Of a stretch of DNA of 53,111 nt, positions 13,087 through 53,086 are shown piece after piece. Source of the stretch: Pirellulales bacterium (GTDB lineage: Bacteria > Planctomycetota > Planctomycetia > Pirellulales > DATAWG01). Both the position numbers and the translations under genes were made by a program. Each line of letters starts with the position of its first letter. Position 1 is the first letter of the stretch. The stretch lies in the NCBI GenBank assembly GCA_035939775.1, contig DASZFO010000065.1, positions 1 to 53,111 on the forward strand. Direction: 5' to 3'. The notes under the pieces are model-generated. The model saw only the letters and a list, made by a program, of their open reading frames with translations, was not told the origin of the DNA and did not search any database.

Positions 13087-13110
13087 CGTCGGAAATCGGC
13101 GGTCGCCCGC

Positions 13111-13138
13111 GTTAGCCCCGTCGCTTGCGACGGGATGG
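13111..13138. repeat. CCCGTCGC-TT-GCGACGGG repeat, copy 1
   Basis: A 28-bp sequence that is identical to 45454-45481. Its core is an 8-bp perfect palindrome (CCCGTCGC TT GCGACGGG). In both places it is surrounded by GTCGGAAATCGG-like words, so the repeat unit is larger than the identical core. Confidence 0.8.
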
Positions 13139-13544
13139 CTTCTGTTTCGCGAATGCTCGCGCCGGTCATTCCGACGTCCGACCACTCTGGCACGCTAGTT
13201 GCTAATTCCTGCGCCCACGTCTAGCGGGGCCGAGATAAAGAAGAGGCACTTCCTTGTATTCGGGGCCGGCAAGAAGAAGAGACGCAGTTAGCCCGGCAGA
13301 AGAAGTGGCAACGGGCGGGAAAAGCGGCGCTGCACGGAATTACGGTAAGAACCGTTAAGTGCGGCAAGAATCAGATGTAGTTGGATTGGCGATGAGAGGC
13401 CTTGGGCCGATCTCTCGGAACATTTAAGAGGCAATCGCCGAAGGACTCTCACGCTCAATCGACCTTGGATAATGACAGGCGAGCTGGAAACAATGGAACG
13501 GTTTCCCGCCCGCCTGCTTTCTTTTGCGTGTTGCAAAATAGTAC

Positions 13545-18751: not shown

Positions 18752-18816
18752 CACCAGCCCGAAGCGCTAGTGAGGGAGCGGCGGCGGTTGTCCCTCGCTG
18801 GCGCTTCGGGCTAGTG
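18752..18816. repeat. Family B palindromic repeat, copy 1
   Basis: Arms CAC-AGCCCGAAGCGC-AG-GAGGGA and their inverse pair over 26 bp with three mismatches around a 13-bp loop. It lies 24 bp after the MATE stop, where it could act as a terminator or RNA-stabilising stem. A second copy is at 52383-52453. Confidence 0.8.
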
Positions 18817-45262: not shown

Positions 45263-45453
45263 CGTGGGGATTTTCCCAAGGCTAGAGATGTAAGTGCAGA
45301 CAAGAATTTGCGGCAGCCGAACGGGCGCACTGAAAGGGCCGCTAGAAATACAAGAACCCGTCCCTCGCGACAAGGTGAGTTGCAGAAAAACTGAGGTCGG
45401 AAATCGGAGTTCGGAAGTCGGAGGTCGGAAATCGGATGTCGGAGTTCGCCCTC

Positions 45454-45481
45454 GTTAGCCCCGTCGCTTGCGACGGGATGG
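45454..45481. repeat. CCCGTCGC-TT-GCGACGGG repeat, copy 2
   Basis: Identical over 28 bp to 13111-13138. Flanked by reiterated GTCGGAAATCGG / GTCGGAAGTCGG words. Confidence 0.8.
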
Positions 45482-45509
45482 CCCGCGCCGGACGTCGGAA
45501 GTCGAAATG

Positions 45510-47824: not shown

Positions 47825-47926
47825 GGAACGCCTAACAAATCCGGCCGGGAGAAGGGGACAGTCCCCGTTTTGCTCCGCGGACTGCGCAAAAGGGGGACAG
47901 TCCCCGCCGGATTTGTTAGGCGTTCC
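47825..47926. repeat. Long hairpin element, copy 1 (flhA leader)
   Basis: Perfect 21-bp terminal arms (47825-47845 and 47906-47926; outer words GGAACGCC / GGCGTTCC) enclose a core with GGGGACAGTCCCC in both arms and TTTTGC ... GCAAAA around a CCGCGG centre. The whole 102 bp folds as one hairpin. It lies 22 bp before flhA. The core, but not the arms, recurs at 52924-53017 in the opposite orientation. Confidence 0.88.
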
Positions 47927-47948
47927 AAGTAACTTCCCGGAGATGCGG

Positions 47949-50048
47949 ATGGCTTCAGCGGCCATACCTCGCGCCAGCGGTGTGTCGCTCGGGCGTTGGC
48001 AAGACCTGATCCTTCCGGTCGGGATCATTGCCAGCGTGCTGGTGATCATGGTCCCGATGCCGGCGGCCTTGATGGACATCCTGCTGTCGGCGAACGTCAC
48101 CGTGGCCGTCATCATTTTGTTGACGACGATCTACGTGCGCACGCCGCTGGAATTCAGCATCTTCCCGTCGCTGCTGTTGGCCACGACGCTCGCCCGGTTG
48201 GTGCTGAACGTCGCCACGACGCGGCTGATCCTCACCCATGCGGGCACCGAAGGATTGCTGGCCGGCGGACACGTGGTGAAGGCTTTCGGCGAGTTCGTCG
48301 CGGGCAACGAGTTGGTAGTGGGGATCATCATCTTCGTGATCGTGATCGTGATCCAGTTTCTCGTGATCACCAAGGGGGCGACGCGCATCAGCGAAGTCGC
48401 GGCCCGTTTCGCTTTGGACGGCATGCCCGGCCGGCAAATGGCGATCGATGCCGACCTGAATGCCGGGGTGATCGACGAGAACGAGGCCCAGCGCCGCCGC
48501 CAGGAGATCACCCGCCAGGCCGACTTTTTCGGAGCGATGGATGGTGCCAGCAAGTTCGTCCGCGGCGACGCCATCGCTGGCATCTTGATTACGCTGATCA
48601 ACATCATCGGTGGGCTGGTGATCGGGGTGGTCGAGTCCGGAATGTCGCTTTCGGAAGCCGGCTCGATCTTCACGAAGCTCACGATCGGCGACGGCCTGGT
48701 GAGCCAAGTCCCGGCGTTCTTGATCTCGCTGGCCGCGGGCTTGATCGTCACGCGCAGCAGTTACGAAGTGAATCTGCCGGTCGAGTTCATCCGGCAACTG
48801 TTCTCCCGGCCGCAAGCGCTGGCGGTGACCGGCGGGTTTCTGTCGGTATTGGTCTTCACAAATCTGCCGACGATCCCATTGGTGCTGATCGGCGGAAGCT
48901 GCATCGGCATGGCCGTGATGCTCTCGCGGCAAAAGCAGCGCGACACGGTTGCCGAGGAGAATAAAGTCAAAGCCGCCGCGAAAAAACCGGCCGAGGAGCG
49001 GATCGAAGACTATCTCACGACCGACCCGATGGAGATCGAACTCGGCGTCGGGCTGATTCGCCTGGCGGACCCCAAGCGCGGCGGCGATCTGCTCGAGCGC
49101 ATCCAGCGCGTGCGGCAGAATATCGCCGCCGAGATGGGCATCATCATGCCCAAGGTTCGCATTCGCGACAACATGCGACTCGAGCAAAATCAATATCGCC
49201 TGAAGATCGCCGACGTCGCGGTCGGCGGCGCGAACGTCGAGCCGACCGGCCTGCTCGCCATGGATTCCGGAACGACGACCGGCAAGGTCCGCGGCATCGA
49301 GACCCGTGAGCCGGCTTTCAACACCCCGGCCATCTGGATCGATGCCGGTCAGCGGAGCCAGGCCGAAATCTACGGCTATACGGTGATCGAGCCGGCGAGC
49401 GTGCTGGCCACGCACCTGACGGAAACGGTCCGCAAACATGCCGACGAGCTGCTCACTCGCGATGCCGCCAAGCACCTGATCGATCAGCTCAAGCAAACGC
49501 AGCCGGCGGCGGTCGAAGAATTGATCCCCGGCCAGATGAAGCTGGCGGAGGTGCAGCGCGTGCTGCAAATGTTGCTCCGTGAGCAGGTGCCGATCCGACA
49601 GTTGGCGCCGATCCTCGAAACTCTCGGCGACTATGCCTCGCGCACGAAGGATCCGATCTTGCTCACAGAATATGTCCGGCATCGCTTGGCCCGCACGATC
49701 TGCACCCGCTATCGCGATAAGCAGGGCCGATTGCACGTGGTGACGCTCGACCCCGCGCTCGAAGATCGGATTCGCGCCGGCATCGACCACGGCGAGCGCG
49801 GTATGTTCATCCGCATGTCGCCGCAGGCCGTCGAGACGACCTGCCGGCTGATCGCAACCGAAATCGAGAAGTTGGCGAGGGCCAATCATCCGCCGATCGT
49901 GCTAGTAAGCCCGCAGATTCGCGCCGGCCTGAAGCAGATGACCACGCCCCATCTCCCGCGGCTCGTCGTGCTGAGCTTCAACGAAATCACCCGCGACACG
50001 CAAATCGAATCGGCGGCGCTGGTGACAGACGTGGGGGCGAGGGCCTAG
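47949..50048 (+). CDS. flhA: Flagellar type III export protein FlhA
   Basis: A 699-residue protein; ATG 47949 (MASAAIPRASGVSLGRW) is preferred because GGAG lies 6 bases upstream, though ATG 47943 is close. The N-terminal half has about eight membrane helices (LPVGIIASVLVIMVPMP, VVGIIIFVIVIVIQFLVI and others). The cytoplasmic FHIPEP signature RFALDGMPGRQMAIDADLN is exact. The C-terminal half is the export-gate cytoplasmic domain (RIRDNMRLEQNQYRLKI, YVRHRLARTICTRYRDK). It forms the nonameric gate for flagellar protein export. It leads flhA-flhF-flhG. The last codons (ending VGARA) lie in a G-rich repeat. Confidence 0.98.
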   Translation: MASAAIPRASGVSLGRWQDLILPVGIIASVLVIMVPMPAALMDILLSANVTVAVIILLTTIYVRTPLEFSIFPSLLLATTLARLVLNVATTRLILTHAGTEGLLAGGHVVKAFGEFVAGNELVVGIIIFVIVIVIQFLVITKGATRISEVAARFALDGMPGRQMAIDADLNAGVIDENEAQRRRQEITRQADFFGAMDGASKFVRGDAIAGILITLINIIGGLVIGVVESGMSLSEAGSIFTKLTIGDGLVSQVPAFLISLAAGLIVTRSSYEVNLPVEFIRQLFSRPQALAVTGGFLSVLVFTNLPTIPLVLIGGSCIGMAVMLSRQKQRDTVAEENKVKAAAKKPAEERIEDYLTTDPMEIELGVGLIRLADPKRGGDLLERIQRVRQNIAAEMGIIMPKVRIRDNMRLEQNQYRLKIADVAVGGANVEPTGLLAMDSGTTTGKVRGIETREPAFNTPAIWIDAGQRSQAEIYGYTVIEPASVLATHLTETVRKHADELLTRDAAKHLIDQLKQTQPAAVEELIPGQMKLAEVQRVLQMLLREQVPIRQLAPILETLGDYASRTKDPILLTEYVRHRLARTICTRYRDKQGRLHVVTLDPALEDRIRAGIDHGERGMFIRMSPQAVETTCRLIATEIEKLARANHPPIVLVSPQIRAGLKQMTTPHLPRLVVLSFNEITRDTQIESAALVTDVGARA

Positions 50049-50238
50049 GGGCGAGGGAGTTGGCCATGGTTCGCGTGCCGGAGGGTTTGGAATAACGATC
50101 GTTGCCGTTTGATTTCGGCACGCAAAGCGTGCCTTACCAGGTAAAGGAGCAGGAACAGCGAACGGCGTCGATGGAGCCGAGCGGCCGGGACCGAAATCCA
50201 CGTCCCTTTCCCCTCACCCCTCGTCCCTCGCCCCTCTC
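50035..50238. repeat. Inverted G-rich/C-rich repeats between flhA and flhF
   Basis: GGGCGAGGGCCTAGGGGCGAGGG (50035-50061) contains the flhA stop, and CCCCTCACCCCTCGTCCCTCGCCCC (50210-50238) ends 5 bases before the flhF ATG. At least 12 bp (AGGGGCGAGGGA) are exactly inverted. The hairpin GGCACGC-AAA-GCGTGCC is inside, at 50117-50133. Confidence 0.75.
50117..50133. repeat. GGCACGC-AAA-GCGTGCC hairpin
   Basis: Perfect 7-bp palindrome in the flhA-flhF gap; a related 17-bp copy is in the start of the long NfeD gene at 22381-22397. Confidence 0.7.
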
Positions 50239-50243
50239 ACCAC

Positions 50244-51407
50244 ATGGATGTAAAAACCTATCGCGCCCGGACGATGCAGGAAGCGCTCAATCTGGTGCGC
50301 CGCGAACTCGGACCGAATGCGGCCGTTTTGCAGACGCGCGACGTGCGGACCGGCGGATTGTTTCGCCTGTTGCCCGGCATGAGGCGCGTCGAAGTGACCG
50401 CGTCGGCCGATGTCACCGTTCCCAGCCGAATGCCGTCGCGCACTCGGGAAGCTGACTTCAACGATGCGGCCGGGCTGGACCTTTCCTCGGCGCCGCGGCC
50501 AGATTCGCAGGAATATCGCCGCAAGTTCCGCGACGAACTGCAAGGGCAGTTGACCGATCTGCACTCGATGGTCGAGGACCTTTGCCGCCGATCGCAAAGT
50601 TCGCCGCCGCGCGATCTGCCGCGATCGCTGTTCCACTTGTTCACCGATCTCATCGAGGCGGACGTCAGTGAGGAGCTGGCCCGCGAGCTGATCGAACGCA
50701 TTCGCGGCGAATCGCCGGGGGACGATCTGGCCGACGAGGTGCTCGCCAAGGCCCGCATCGCTCGGATGGTCGAAGACGAGATTCAGGTCACGGGACCCAT
50801 TCGCGCCGAGCCGGGGCGGCGGCGGCTCGTCGCGCTCGTCGGTCCGACCGGGGTCGGCAAGACCACCACGATCGCCAAGCTGGCCGCCAATTTCCGCCTG
50901 AAAGAAAAGCGGAAAGTCGGGTTGATTACGGTCGACACGTATCGCATCGCGGCCGTCGAGCAGCTTCGCACCTATGCCGACATCATCGATCTGCCGATGG
51001 CCGTCGTCTCGACGCCGCGCGAGATGCGCGACGCAGTGGCCCGGATGAGGGATCTGGAATTGATCCTGATGGACACGGCCGGCCGCAGCCCGCGCGACGA
51101 AGTGAAGATTCAAGAATTGAAGTCGATGCTCTCCGAAGCCGCGGCCGACGAGGTGCATCTCGTGCTCAGCAGCACGGCTGGGGCCGCGAGCCTCGTGCGC
51201 ACCGCAGGGCAATTCGCCGCGGTTGGCGCCACGACGCTGGTGCTCACGAAGCTCGACGAAGTGAACGGGCTCGGGAATCTCTTGCCGCTGTTGCGGTCCT
51301 GCAAATTGCCGCTGAGCTACGTGACCGACGGACAGAATGTCCCCGATGACATCGAACCGGCCGACCGACGGAAATTGGCACGCATGGTTTTGGGAATGGA
51401 GGTCTGA
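50244..51407 (+). CDS. flhF: Flagellar biosynthesis GTPase FlhF
   Basis: A 387-residue SRP-type GTPase. The conserved N-terminus MDVKTYRARTMQEALNLVRRELGPNAAVL is followed by a variable linker, an N domain (LFHLFTDLIEADVSEELARELIERIR) and the G domain: G1 LVGPTGVGKTTTIAKLA (about residues 198-215), the LITVDTYRIAAVEQLRTYAD motif, G3 ILMDTAGRSPRD and G4 VLTKLDEVNGLG. With FlhG it controls flagellar number and position. The start is immediately after a C-rich repeat, leaving no ordinary ribosome binding site. flhG starts 8 bases after its stop. Confidence 0.97.
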   Translation: MDVKTYRARTMQEALNLVRRELGPNAAVLQTRDVRTGGLFRLLPGMRRVEVTASADVTVPSRMPSRTREADFNDAAGLDLSSAPRPDSQEYRRKFRDELQGQLTDLHSMVEDLCRRSQSSPPRDLPRSLFHLFTDLIEADVSEELARELIERIRGESPGDDLADEVLAKARIARMVEDEIQVTGPIRAEPGRRRLVALVGPTGVGKTTTIAKLAANFRLKEKRKVGLITVDTYRIAAVEQLRTYADIIDLPMAVVSTPREMRDAVARMRDLELILMDTAGRSPRDEVKIQELKSMLSEAAADEVHLVLSSTAGAASLVRTAGQFAAVGATTLVLTKLDEVNGLGNLLPLLRSCKLPLSYVTDGQNVPDDIEPADRRKLARMVLGMEV

Positions 51408-51414
51408 CGCCGTA

Positions 51415-52302
51415 ATGCACGATCAAGCCGACGAACTGCGAATCCTGGCCCGACAGTGGGCCACCGATGCTAAACCCGCCGCGCAAGGTCCGAGAAAGAT
51501 CGTGGTCTCGGCCGGCAAAGGGGGCGTGGGAACCACGACCGTTGCCGTGAACCTGGCCGCGTCGCTCGGGCGGCAAGGCTGCCGCACGATCCTAATCGAC
51601 GCCGATTTCAGCGGCGCCGATGCGGCGATGCTGTGCGGCATCGAATCGCGCGACACGATCGCCGACGTGCTCTCCGGCCGGCGCTCGGTTCACGAGGTGC
51701 TGCAGCCCGGACCGGCCGGCATTCAAGTCGTCCCCGGGATTTGGTCGCCGGGCTCGATTCCCGATTGCTCGCCTGCCGCGCAGCAACGCTTGCTGCGAGA
51801 AATCGATCAACTCGCGCGCCATGCCGAAGTAGTCGTGCTCGACGCGGGGAGCGGATTGAACCACATCGTTCAGAAGTTCTGGCGAGCGGCTGATGAAGTG
51901 CTGGTGGTGACGACCGCCGAGGCCGTTTCGATCATGGACGCTTACGCGGCGATGAAGCTGTTCCTCGCCGGGCATTCGGCGATCAACGTGGCGACGGTCG
52001 TCAATCAATCGCCGCAGCCCGACGTGGCGGTAGGCGTGCATGCCCGGATTGCCCAGGCCTGCCAGCGGTTCTTGGGAATGCGAATTCATCGCGCCGGATC
52101 CGTGCCTTGGGATTCAGCAGTGGCGATCGCCAATCGCAGCGGCAAGCCGCTGGTTCTGGAAAACTCGGAATCGCCCGCCGCACGTGGAATCGATCAATTG
52201 GCGGAACGAATCCTGACGCCGAACGGAGCGACCGACGACGGCGATGCGGAAGATATTTTAGATGCAAGCATGACACGGATTGCAGACAACATTGCGGCGT
52301 GA
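51415..52302 (+). CDS. flhG: Flagellar number regulator FlhG (MinD/ParA-like ATPase)
   Basis: A 295-residue MinD-family protein with ATG 51415 (MHDQADELRILARQ); the longer frame beginning in flhF is not needed. The deviant Walker A is VSAGKGGVGTTTVAVNLA, with the MinD signature lysine Lys35 kept but the P-loop lysine replaced by Thr40. Next comes ILIDADFSGADAAMLCGI (Walker A' region), VVVLDAGSGLNHIVQKF (Walker B) and a C-terminal helix that is acidic (DDGDAEDILDASMTRIADNI), whereas MinD has an amphipathic membrane helix. It antagonises FlhF and sets flagellar number. The order flhA-flhF-flhG is standard. Confidence 0.94.
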   Translation: MHDQADELRILARQWATDAKPAAQGPRKIVVSAGKGGVGTTTVAVNLAASLGRQGCRTILIDADFSGADAAMLCGIESRDTIADVLSGRRSVHEVLQPGPAGIQVVPGIWSPGSIPDCSPAAQQRLLREIDQLARHAEVVVLDAGSGLNHIVQKFWRAADEVLVVTTAEAVSIMDAYAAMKLFLAGHSAINVATVVNQSPQPDVAVGVHARIAQACQRFLGMRIHRAGSVPWDSAVAIANRSGKPLVLENSESPAARGIDQLAERILTPNGATDDGDAEDILDASMTRIADNIAA

Positions 52303-52312
52303 GCGCGCCTTA

Positions 52313-52350
52313 GCCGACGCTGCCAGCGTCGGCAGGGCTTTTTACTTTTT
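52313..52350 (+). terminator. Intrinsic terminator of the flhAFG unit
   Basis: GCCGACGCT-GCC-AGCGTCGGC is a perfect 9-bp stem with a 3-base loop, followed by AGGGCTTTTTACTTTTT. It is 11 bp after the flhG stop. Confidence 0.82.
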
Positions 52351-52382
52351 CACACCACCAGGTTTGGGGCGACCACTTTAAT

Positions 52383-52453
52383 CACTAGCCCGAAGCGCTA
52401 GCGAGGGAATTCTCTTGGAAAGCCAGAACCCTCGCTGGCGCGTCGGGCTAGTG
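52383..52453. repeat. Family B palindromic repeat, copy 2
   Basis: CACTAGCCCGAAGCGCTAGC at the left pairs with CTCGCTGGCGCGTCGGGCTA at the right, with an approximately 20-bp loop. It matches copy 1 at 18752-18816 in both arms. Confidence 0.8.
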
Positions 52454-52480
52454 TGCGGTTCCCAAATTAAAAAATGAAAC

Positions 52481-52502
52481 GCCCTGCCAGCATCGGCAGG
52501 GC
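52481..52502. repeat. GCCCTGCC-AGCATC-GGCAGGGC hairpin
   Basis: Perfect 8-bp stem with 6-base loop; its words resemble the flhG terminator (GCCAGCGTCGGCAGGGC), so it may be a second copy without a U-run. Confidence 0.6.
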
Positions 52503-52657
52503 GAGCTACAAAACAATTTGGAGAATCAACAACCGTCATAAGGAACAATTCAATTGTGCGGATCGCGCGGCCGATAATAAGGAAGACCGTCGGCACGCGA
52601 CGGGTCGTTAAAATACACCGATTACGGCAAGTTTGACGGCAGCCGCGAGATTCGCTC

Positions 52658-52918
52658 ATGGGACGCGCCTATGCCGGAGTCATGGGATCGCTCGCGTTTT
52701 CAACGGTCATGCTGCGGTGCGTGCTGCGATCGAGCGCCGTCGAAGCGGCGGTCGGACAAGCGGTGATTGGCCTGTTCGTCTTCGCGGCGATTGGCGCCGC
52801 GATCGGACAACTAGCCGGCTGGATCGTTGACGACTCGGTTCGCGCTCAACTGGCGGCCGAGATGGCAGCCAGTGCGAATGCAAACAACAAGGCGGCGGCT
52901 GGGACGGTGAAAAAGTAG
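52658..52918 (+). CDS. Small membrane protein between flhG and next gene
   Basis: An 86-residue protein beginning MGRAYAGVMGSLAFSTVMLR. It has two hydrophobic segments (GVMGSLAFSTVMLRCVL and AVIGLFVFAAIGAAIGQLAGWI) and a short charged, Ala/Asn-rich C-terminus. I recognise no domain. It follows flhG and is followed by the long hairpin element. By position it could be flagella-related, but no sequence evidence supports that. Confidence 0.68.
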   Translation: MGRAYAGVMGSLAFSTVMLRCVLRSSAVEAAVGQAVIGLFVFAAIGAAIGQLAGWIVDDSVRAQLAAEMAASANANNKAAAGTVKK

Positions 52919-52923
52919 TTAGG

Positions 52924-53017
52924 AGCTGTTTCAAAACCGCCGGGGGCTGTCCCCATTTTGTGCAGTCGCGGAGAAAAATGGGGACCGTCCCCTTTTCTTG
53001 GCGGTTTTGAAACAGCT
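52924..53017. repeat. Long hairpin element, copy 2
   Basis: Perfect 18-bp terminal arms AGCTGTTTCAAAACCGCC (52924-52941) and GGCGGTTTTGAAACAGCT (53000-53017) enclose the same core as 47825-47926, reversed: GGGG-CTGTCCCC, TTTTG.GCAGTC, GCGGAG.AAAA and GGGGACCGTCCCC. Starts 5 bp after the small membrane gene stop. Confidence 0.88.
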
Positions 53018-53086
53018 TCGAGTGATGCGTCACGCGAGATGGATCTCGCGGTCAAGATCGACGCGCGAACAATCACGGAGGATTGC

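Follow-up and report, generated by a model that had tools for sequence, protein, structure and literature searches.

The window, that is, the whole stretch of 53,111 nt that was analysed, comes from a draft genome of the order Pirellulales and holds two long hairpins next to flagellar genes, both at the places given by an earlier sequence-only reading. Hairpin 1 is found between a gene for a DinG/YoaA-like helicase and flhA, and the start codon of flhA follows about 17 bp further on. Hairpin 2 is located behind an 86-residue reading frame which comes after flhF and a MinD-like gene, and it is likewise intergenic. Both fold more stably than dinucleotide shuffles of their sequence (z-scores of -9.5 for hairpin 1 and -8.4 for hairpin 2), and none of 200 shuffles was equally stable.

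Based on its architecture and its A-type arms, which are as in 35 A-family copies of the genome, hairpin 1 (47826-47925, forward strand, 100 bp) was classed as a probable composite MITE. Its left arm (47825-47845, forward strand) is an A-type terminal inverted repeat (TIR), GAACGCCTAACAAATCCGGC, and its right arm (47906-47926, reverse strand) is the perfect complement of the left, which gives 21 fully paired bp. The core between them (47854-47905, reverse strand) consists of two GGGGACAGTCCCC palindromes around GTTTTGCTCCGCGGACTGCGCAAAAG, with core words at 47854-47866 and 47893-47905. Hairpin 2 (52922-53019, forward strand, 98 bp) was likewise classed, from its sequence and fold, as a probable composite MITE with C-type arms. 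The left arm (52922-52941, forward strand) has one mismatch to the right arm, GAAGCTGTTTCAAAACCGCC (53000-53019, reverse strand), and the 20-bp arms contain 18 perfect pairs (52924-52941 with 53000-53017). The core of hairpin 2 (52942-52992, forward strand), identified from the sequence and by pattern search, contains GGGGGCTGTCCCC and GGGGACCGTCCCC around ATTTTGTGCAGTCGCGGAGAAAAAT, and its core words lie at 52942-52954 (one mismatch) and 52980-52992. The sequence-only reading was therefore right that a core of about 50 bp is present in both hairpins in opposite orientation, and that it is flanked by perfectly paired arms of 21 and 18 bp. It had also given the core a CCGCGG centre, whereas the centre of hairpin 2 is actually GTCGCGGAG.

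Two other kinds of repeat were seen in the window. An imperfect palindrome family (CACTAGCCCGAAGCGCTAGCGAGGG / CCCTCGCTGGCGCNTCGGGCTAGTG) is found at 18752-18816 and 52383-52453, the second copy being near hairpin 2. A direct repeat containing a GTCGCTTGCGAC palindrome is found at 13089-13139 and 45432-45482, with 90% identity between the copies.

Arm families, IS5-family ends and target sites

The arms belong to at least four repeat families (A, B, C, and D). Exact 14-mer matches to the A arm of hairpin 1 number 72 in the genome, and for arm B (GAGCCTATCCGAGAACCGCC) an 18-base degenerate word was matched exactly at 78 places. A and B words are commonly paired in inverted orientation, about 80 or 96 bp apart. 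Within the genome the exact word of arm C was found in hairpin 2 only, and three copies of arm D (GAACCCCTCACAAAACCGCC) were seen. Compared pairwise, the four arms are identical at 10 to 16 of 20 positions, with a GA tip and a CCGnC inner end common to all. Hairpins 1 and 2, whose arms had been described as unrelated, do carry arms of different families; however, these are not wholly dissimilar, as in an ungapped alignment 12 of 20 positions of A and C coincide (binomial p about 9e-4), and both show the pattern GA...CAAAnCCGnC.

Perfect pairing proved to be the exception, as only 19 of 91 A and B copies have perfectly paired arms. One-sided mutations affect 153 arm cells in these copies, compared to 35 cells changed alike on both sides, and the two-sided changes fall mostly at one polymorphic position per family (A position 3 and B position 13). 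From the exactly paired arms the sequence-only reading had suggested that arms are regenerated or that a structured stem is under strong selection. Instead, the arms are conserved across copies within each family, which is an outcome that this reading had itself named as refuting it; A and B have more than 70 exact words each, and the arms match the TIRs of IS5-family elements. One form of regeneration would be template copying, for example hairpin-mediated gene conversion, which would supply new arms around a kept core. The few positions that change in step on both sides could be taken in its favour, but they are subfamily polymorphisms shared between copies, decay is one-sided overall, and the same arms are seen in one copy after another and match IS ends, so that this explanation is scarcely credible. 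Since one-sided decay is general and few copies are perfect, the perfect pairing of the window hairpins need not reflect selection, and relative youth of these copies would be compatible with it.

The source of the arms is suggested by IS relatives, whose TIRs were computed from DNA. In the same order, the element at locus L179 is 917 bp long; it has B ends, is flanked by a TAA/TAA duplication and contains a transposase reading frame. This transposase matches NF033580 with 194 bits (cut-off 110) as well as PF13340 and PF01609, and its use as a query found relatives in 104 of 246 genomes. Arm B is identical to the TIR of L179 at 18 of 20 positions, and further B-type ends were found at L202-L205. 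C-type ends are present at L225 and at L228, where the TIR (GAAGCTGTTTCAAAAC) is identical to the first 16 bases of arm C (16/16). A-like ends (CCTAACAAAA) are present at L208, L210, L212, and L215, with identity to arm A of up to 13 of 17 (L208). NF033580 scores above its cut-off at L179, L202, and L212, and the frames of L228 score slightly below it. Full IS elements of about 900 bp with these ends and an NF033580 transposase are thus found in related genomes. The hairpins have their TIRs in common with autonomous IS copies from those genomes, not from this draft, and the presence of an IS5-family transposase between such ends is established at family level. From the C-type match to L228 and L225 and the A-like ends of the L208 group, it seems best to assign the arms of hairpins 1 and 2 to the termini of two distinct lineages within the IS5 family.

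An intact IS5 element with such ends was not found in this draft assembly, which yielded only one distant transposase fragment close to a contig end (C193), and the PF13340 profile found no match in it. Multi-copy IS elements often break draft assemblies, so the missing intact copy is weak evidence. Four PF01609 matches in the genome were considered as the arm source and rejected, as the arms are not at their ends.

Further analysis revealed an exact 3-bp duplication, mostly TTA or TAA, next to the arms of 46 of the 91 A and B copies, a fixed-length duplication as in MITEs; exact duplications of 4-9 bp were absent from these copies. The three bases outside the arms are identical in 34 of 56 B copies and 12 of 35 A copies, against means of 10.3 and 4.9 when partners were shuffled. 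For the A arms the observed 12 equals the maximum of 5000 shuffles (12), an excess weaker than that for B. On the left the flanks follow the consensus C-TWA and on the right TWA-G, which places the target, mostly TTA or TAA, in CTWAG. As non-palindromic duplications (TTC, TGA, TTG, TCC, and CGA) are also present, the duplication is more than an extension of the palindromic arms. At the window's own two copies an exact 3-bp duplication is absent (TAG/CAA at one and TTA/GAG at the other). The IS1031 and IS427 groups served as comparison for NF033580-type elements, and for ISLxx6 a 3-nucleotide insertion site is reported, a feature said to be common among IS1031-group elements (PMC2516522).

The core and its separation from the arms

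The draft genome (6.39 Mb in 384 contigs) contains 407 copies of the core word GGGGACNGTCCCC and none of the same pattern read backwards. In the sister genus G001 the core word was found 37 times, and in most other genomes of the order 0 to 3 times. The search of the genome and its relatives that had been proposed for the core thus found it well outside the window. With one or two core words in most elements, the number of elements per genome extrapolates to very roughly 250. Copies sampled by search and by stretches of sequence are about 55-138 bp long, non-coding and dispersed over many contigs, as expected of MITEs, and some lie inside reading frames. A scan of genome contigs with a long core pattern gave no match. 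The shorter word GCAAAAGGGGACNGTCCCC was also seen in unrelated phyla, among them Bacteroidales, Coriobacteria, Omnitrophota and others (L260-L339), where it is sometimes self-overlapping on both strands as GCAAAAGGGGACNGTCCCCTTTTGC.

These numbers bear on the idea that the stems function as conserved RNA or DNA signals, such as terminators, attenuators or regulators of flagellar genes. The very stable folds, the intergenic position of both hairpins and the short distance of one of them to flhA would agree with such a role. On the other hand, an Rfam search returned no family above the gathering threshold, and neither a curated match nor the compensatory changes of a structured RNA family were found, the decay of the arms being one-sided. 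In 19 relatives, G001 included, neither the core nor arm A is present in the region before flhA (0/19), and hundreds of copies exist across the genome, some of them within reading frames. One-sided arm decay and the absence of a hairpin before flhA in relatives argue against a conserved RNA or flagellar signal, which is therefore very unlikely. The sequence-only reading had also pointed to the bracketing of the flagellar genes, and with hundreds of copies across the genome this needs no special cause. Rather than flagellar control signals, the hairpins are ordinary genomic parasites of an unusual, mix-and-match build.

Core and arms were each found without the other. At least one arm could be recognised in 28 of 32 sampled core clusters of the genome itself, compared to 1 of 20 in G001 and 16 of 400 random places. 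A bare core of G001 (GGGGACTGTCCCC-TTTT...AAAA-GGGGACCGTCCCC) lies in frame within mutS (L153:385-434), between the ND and ITGPNMAGKS motifs, and the insertion covers query residues 116-154 in place of 9 residues of E. coli MutS. B arms without a core are found in other families of the order, as a 44-bp pure palindrome at L174 and as 66-68-bp elements at L182, L198, and L199, and arm-only copies of 55 bp are still present in the genome itself (L037 and L078). G030, G051, and G220 are three further genomes in which B arms come with a core, which in G220 is the variant GGGGACAGGCACATTTTGC. Inner loops vary as well. Arm A and both B spacer types are each found with loops of class I (AGTCCGCGG type) as well as with loops of class II (ACCATCG...CGATGGT type), and in a third class the widespread CCCTCTCCC...GGGAGAGGG repeat takes the place of the inner loop (L007 and L133). 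As arms, spacers and loops occur in most combinations, the simplest reading is exchange between copies or repeated assembly of modules. Separately, a B-type element was seen in frame in a reading frame for a PQQ-like beta-propeller (L078:1983-2120), where the added peptide is rich in GLSPF/GPVPL.

The core resembles repeats that adjoin RAYT transposases, although the link is putative. Four Y1_Tnp proteins are encoded in the genome. REP-like heads (AAAGGGGAC) number 21 in total and are spread over 9 of 34 RAYT loci, frequently in inverted pairs adjoining the gene; about 144 kb of control loci of the order, mostly from other genomes, contain none. Moreover, a CAAAAGGGGAC head is present in the core too. 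If the entire hairpin were a REPIN, a RAYT (Y1/HUH) transposase would move two REP sequences in single-stranded form, and the arms would be hitch-hiking flank. However, none of the 34 RAYT loci contains the core word, only the shorter head, so that the repeat was not found beside a RAYT gene of its own, and the AAAA lies inside in the core and outside in the RAYT pairs, which is the opposite geometry. Duplication of the target is not known for RAYT/IS200-type insertion, yet 3-bp duplications abut the arms here, and the arms match IS5 TIRs. As an account of the entire hairpin a REPIN is thus improbable, while a RAYT origin of the core would be plausible. Inspection of the listed copies showed no conserved GTAG or CGTC tag adjoining the core words. 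At L245, a RAYT gene was seen with several AAAAGGGGACATTCTACTTTTTC inverted pairs on both sides.

Composite elements and known mobile DNA

The resemblance of the arms to IS5-family TIRs, together with the 3-bp target duplications, identifies the hairpins as MITEs. Very probably they are composite, with several IS5-family end types (of the NF033580 transposase type) placed around a separable palindromic core. The modular non-autonomous mobile element put forward by the sequence-only reading is borne out in this form, one core being combined with several arm families. In the proposed mechanism, the arms of about 20 bp act as TIRs of several related IS5-family insertion sequences, whose transposase would cut and paste in trans anything with its ends and duplicate 3 bp of target. 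Inside lies a repeat unit of its own, about 50 bp long and made of two GGGGACNGTCCCC palindromes around a TTTTGC...GCAAAA hairpin. This core probably entered small arm-only palindromes, and arms and inner loops would then have been exchanged between copies. The core may itself have been mobilised by RAYT-type transposases. A fuller version, put forward only tentatively, is a parasite of two transposases, in which the core spreads by a single-strand (RAYT-type) mechanism, repeatedly enters arm-only IS5 MITEs and is carried by several IS5 transposases, with the ends swapped as the lineage gains and loses IS elements.

A MITE is usually taken to be a reduced form of a single IS. The hairpins are like IS-derived bacterial MITEs in being short and non-coding, in their IS terminal inverted repeats, target duplication and high copy number, and in occasional in-frame insertion into genes; they differ in that one common core is found with several TIR families and also without TIRs. 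They share TIR sequences with IS5-family elements of the NF033580 type, and with L179 also the 3-bp duplication, but have kept the ends alone and carry no transposase. Palindromic words in inverted pairs and high copy number are features of REP, BIME and REPIN sequences with RAYT (PMC2817692, PMC3116915, PMC3733652), as is the head common to the core and the repeats beside RAYT genes of the order. Unlike these, the core has no GTAG/CGTC tag, its word lies beside no RAYT gene examined, and most copies here are within IS5-type ends with target duplications.

In the open-access literature on planctomycete MITEs and on modular or chimeric MITEs, no description of this element was found. Its unusual part is the mixing of ends, with the same double-palindrome core inside several arm families. 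Composite MITEs explain a very large set of hairpins and the odd in-frame peptides in these genomes, and they caution against reading such hairpins as regulatory RNAs. Moreover, one core that moves both bare and within the ends of several IS lineages would illustrate how a change of ends lets a non-autonomous element persist after its source of transposase has gone.
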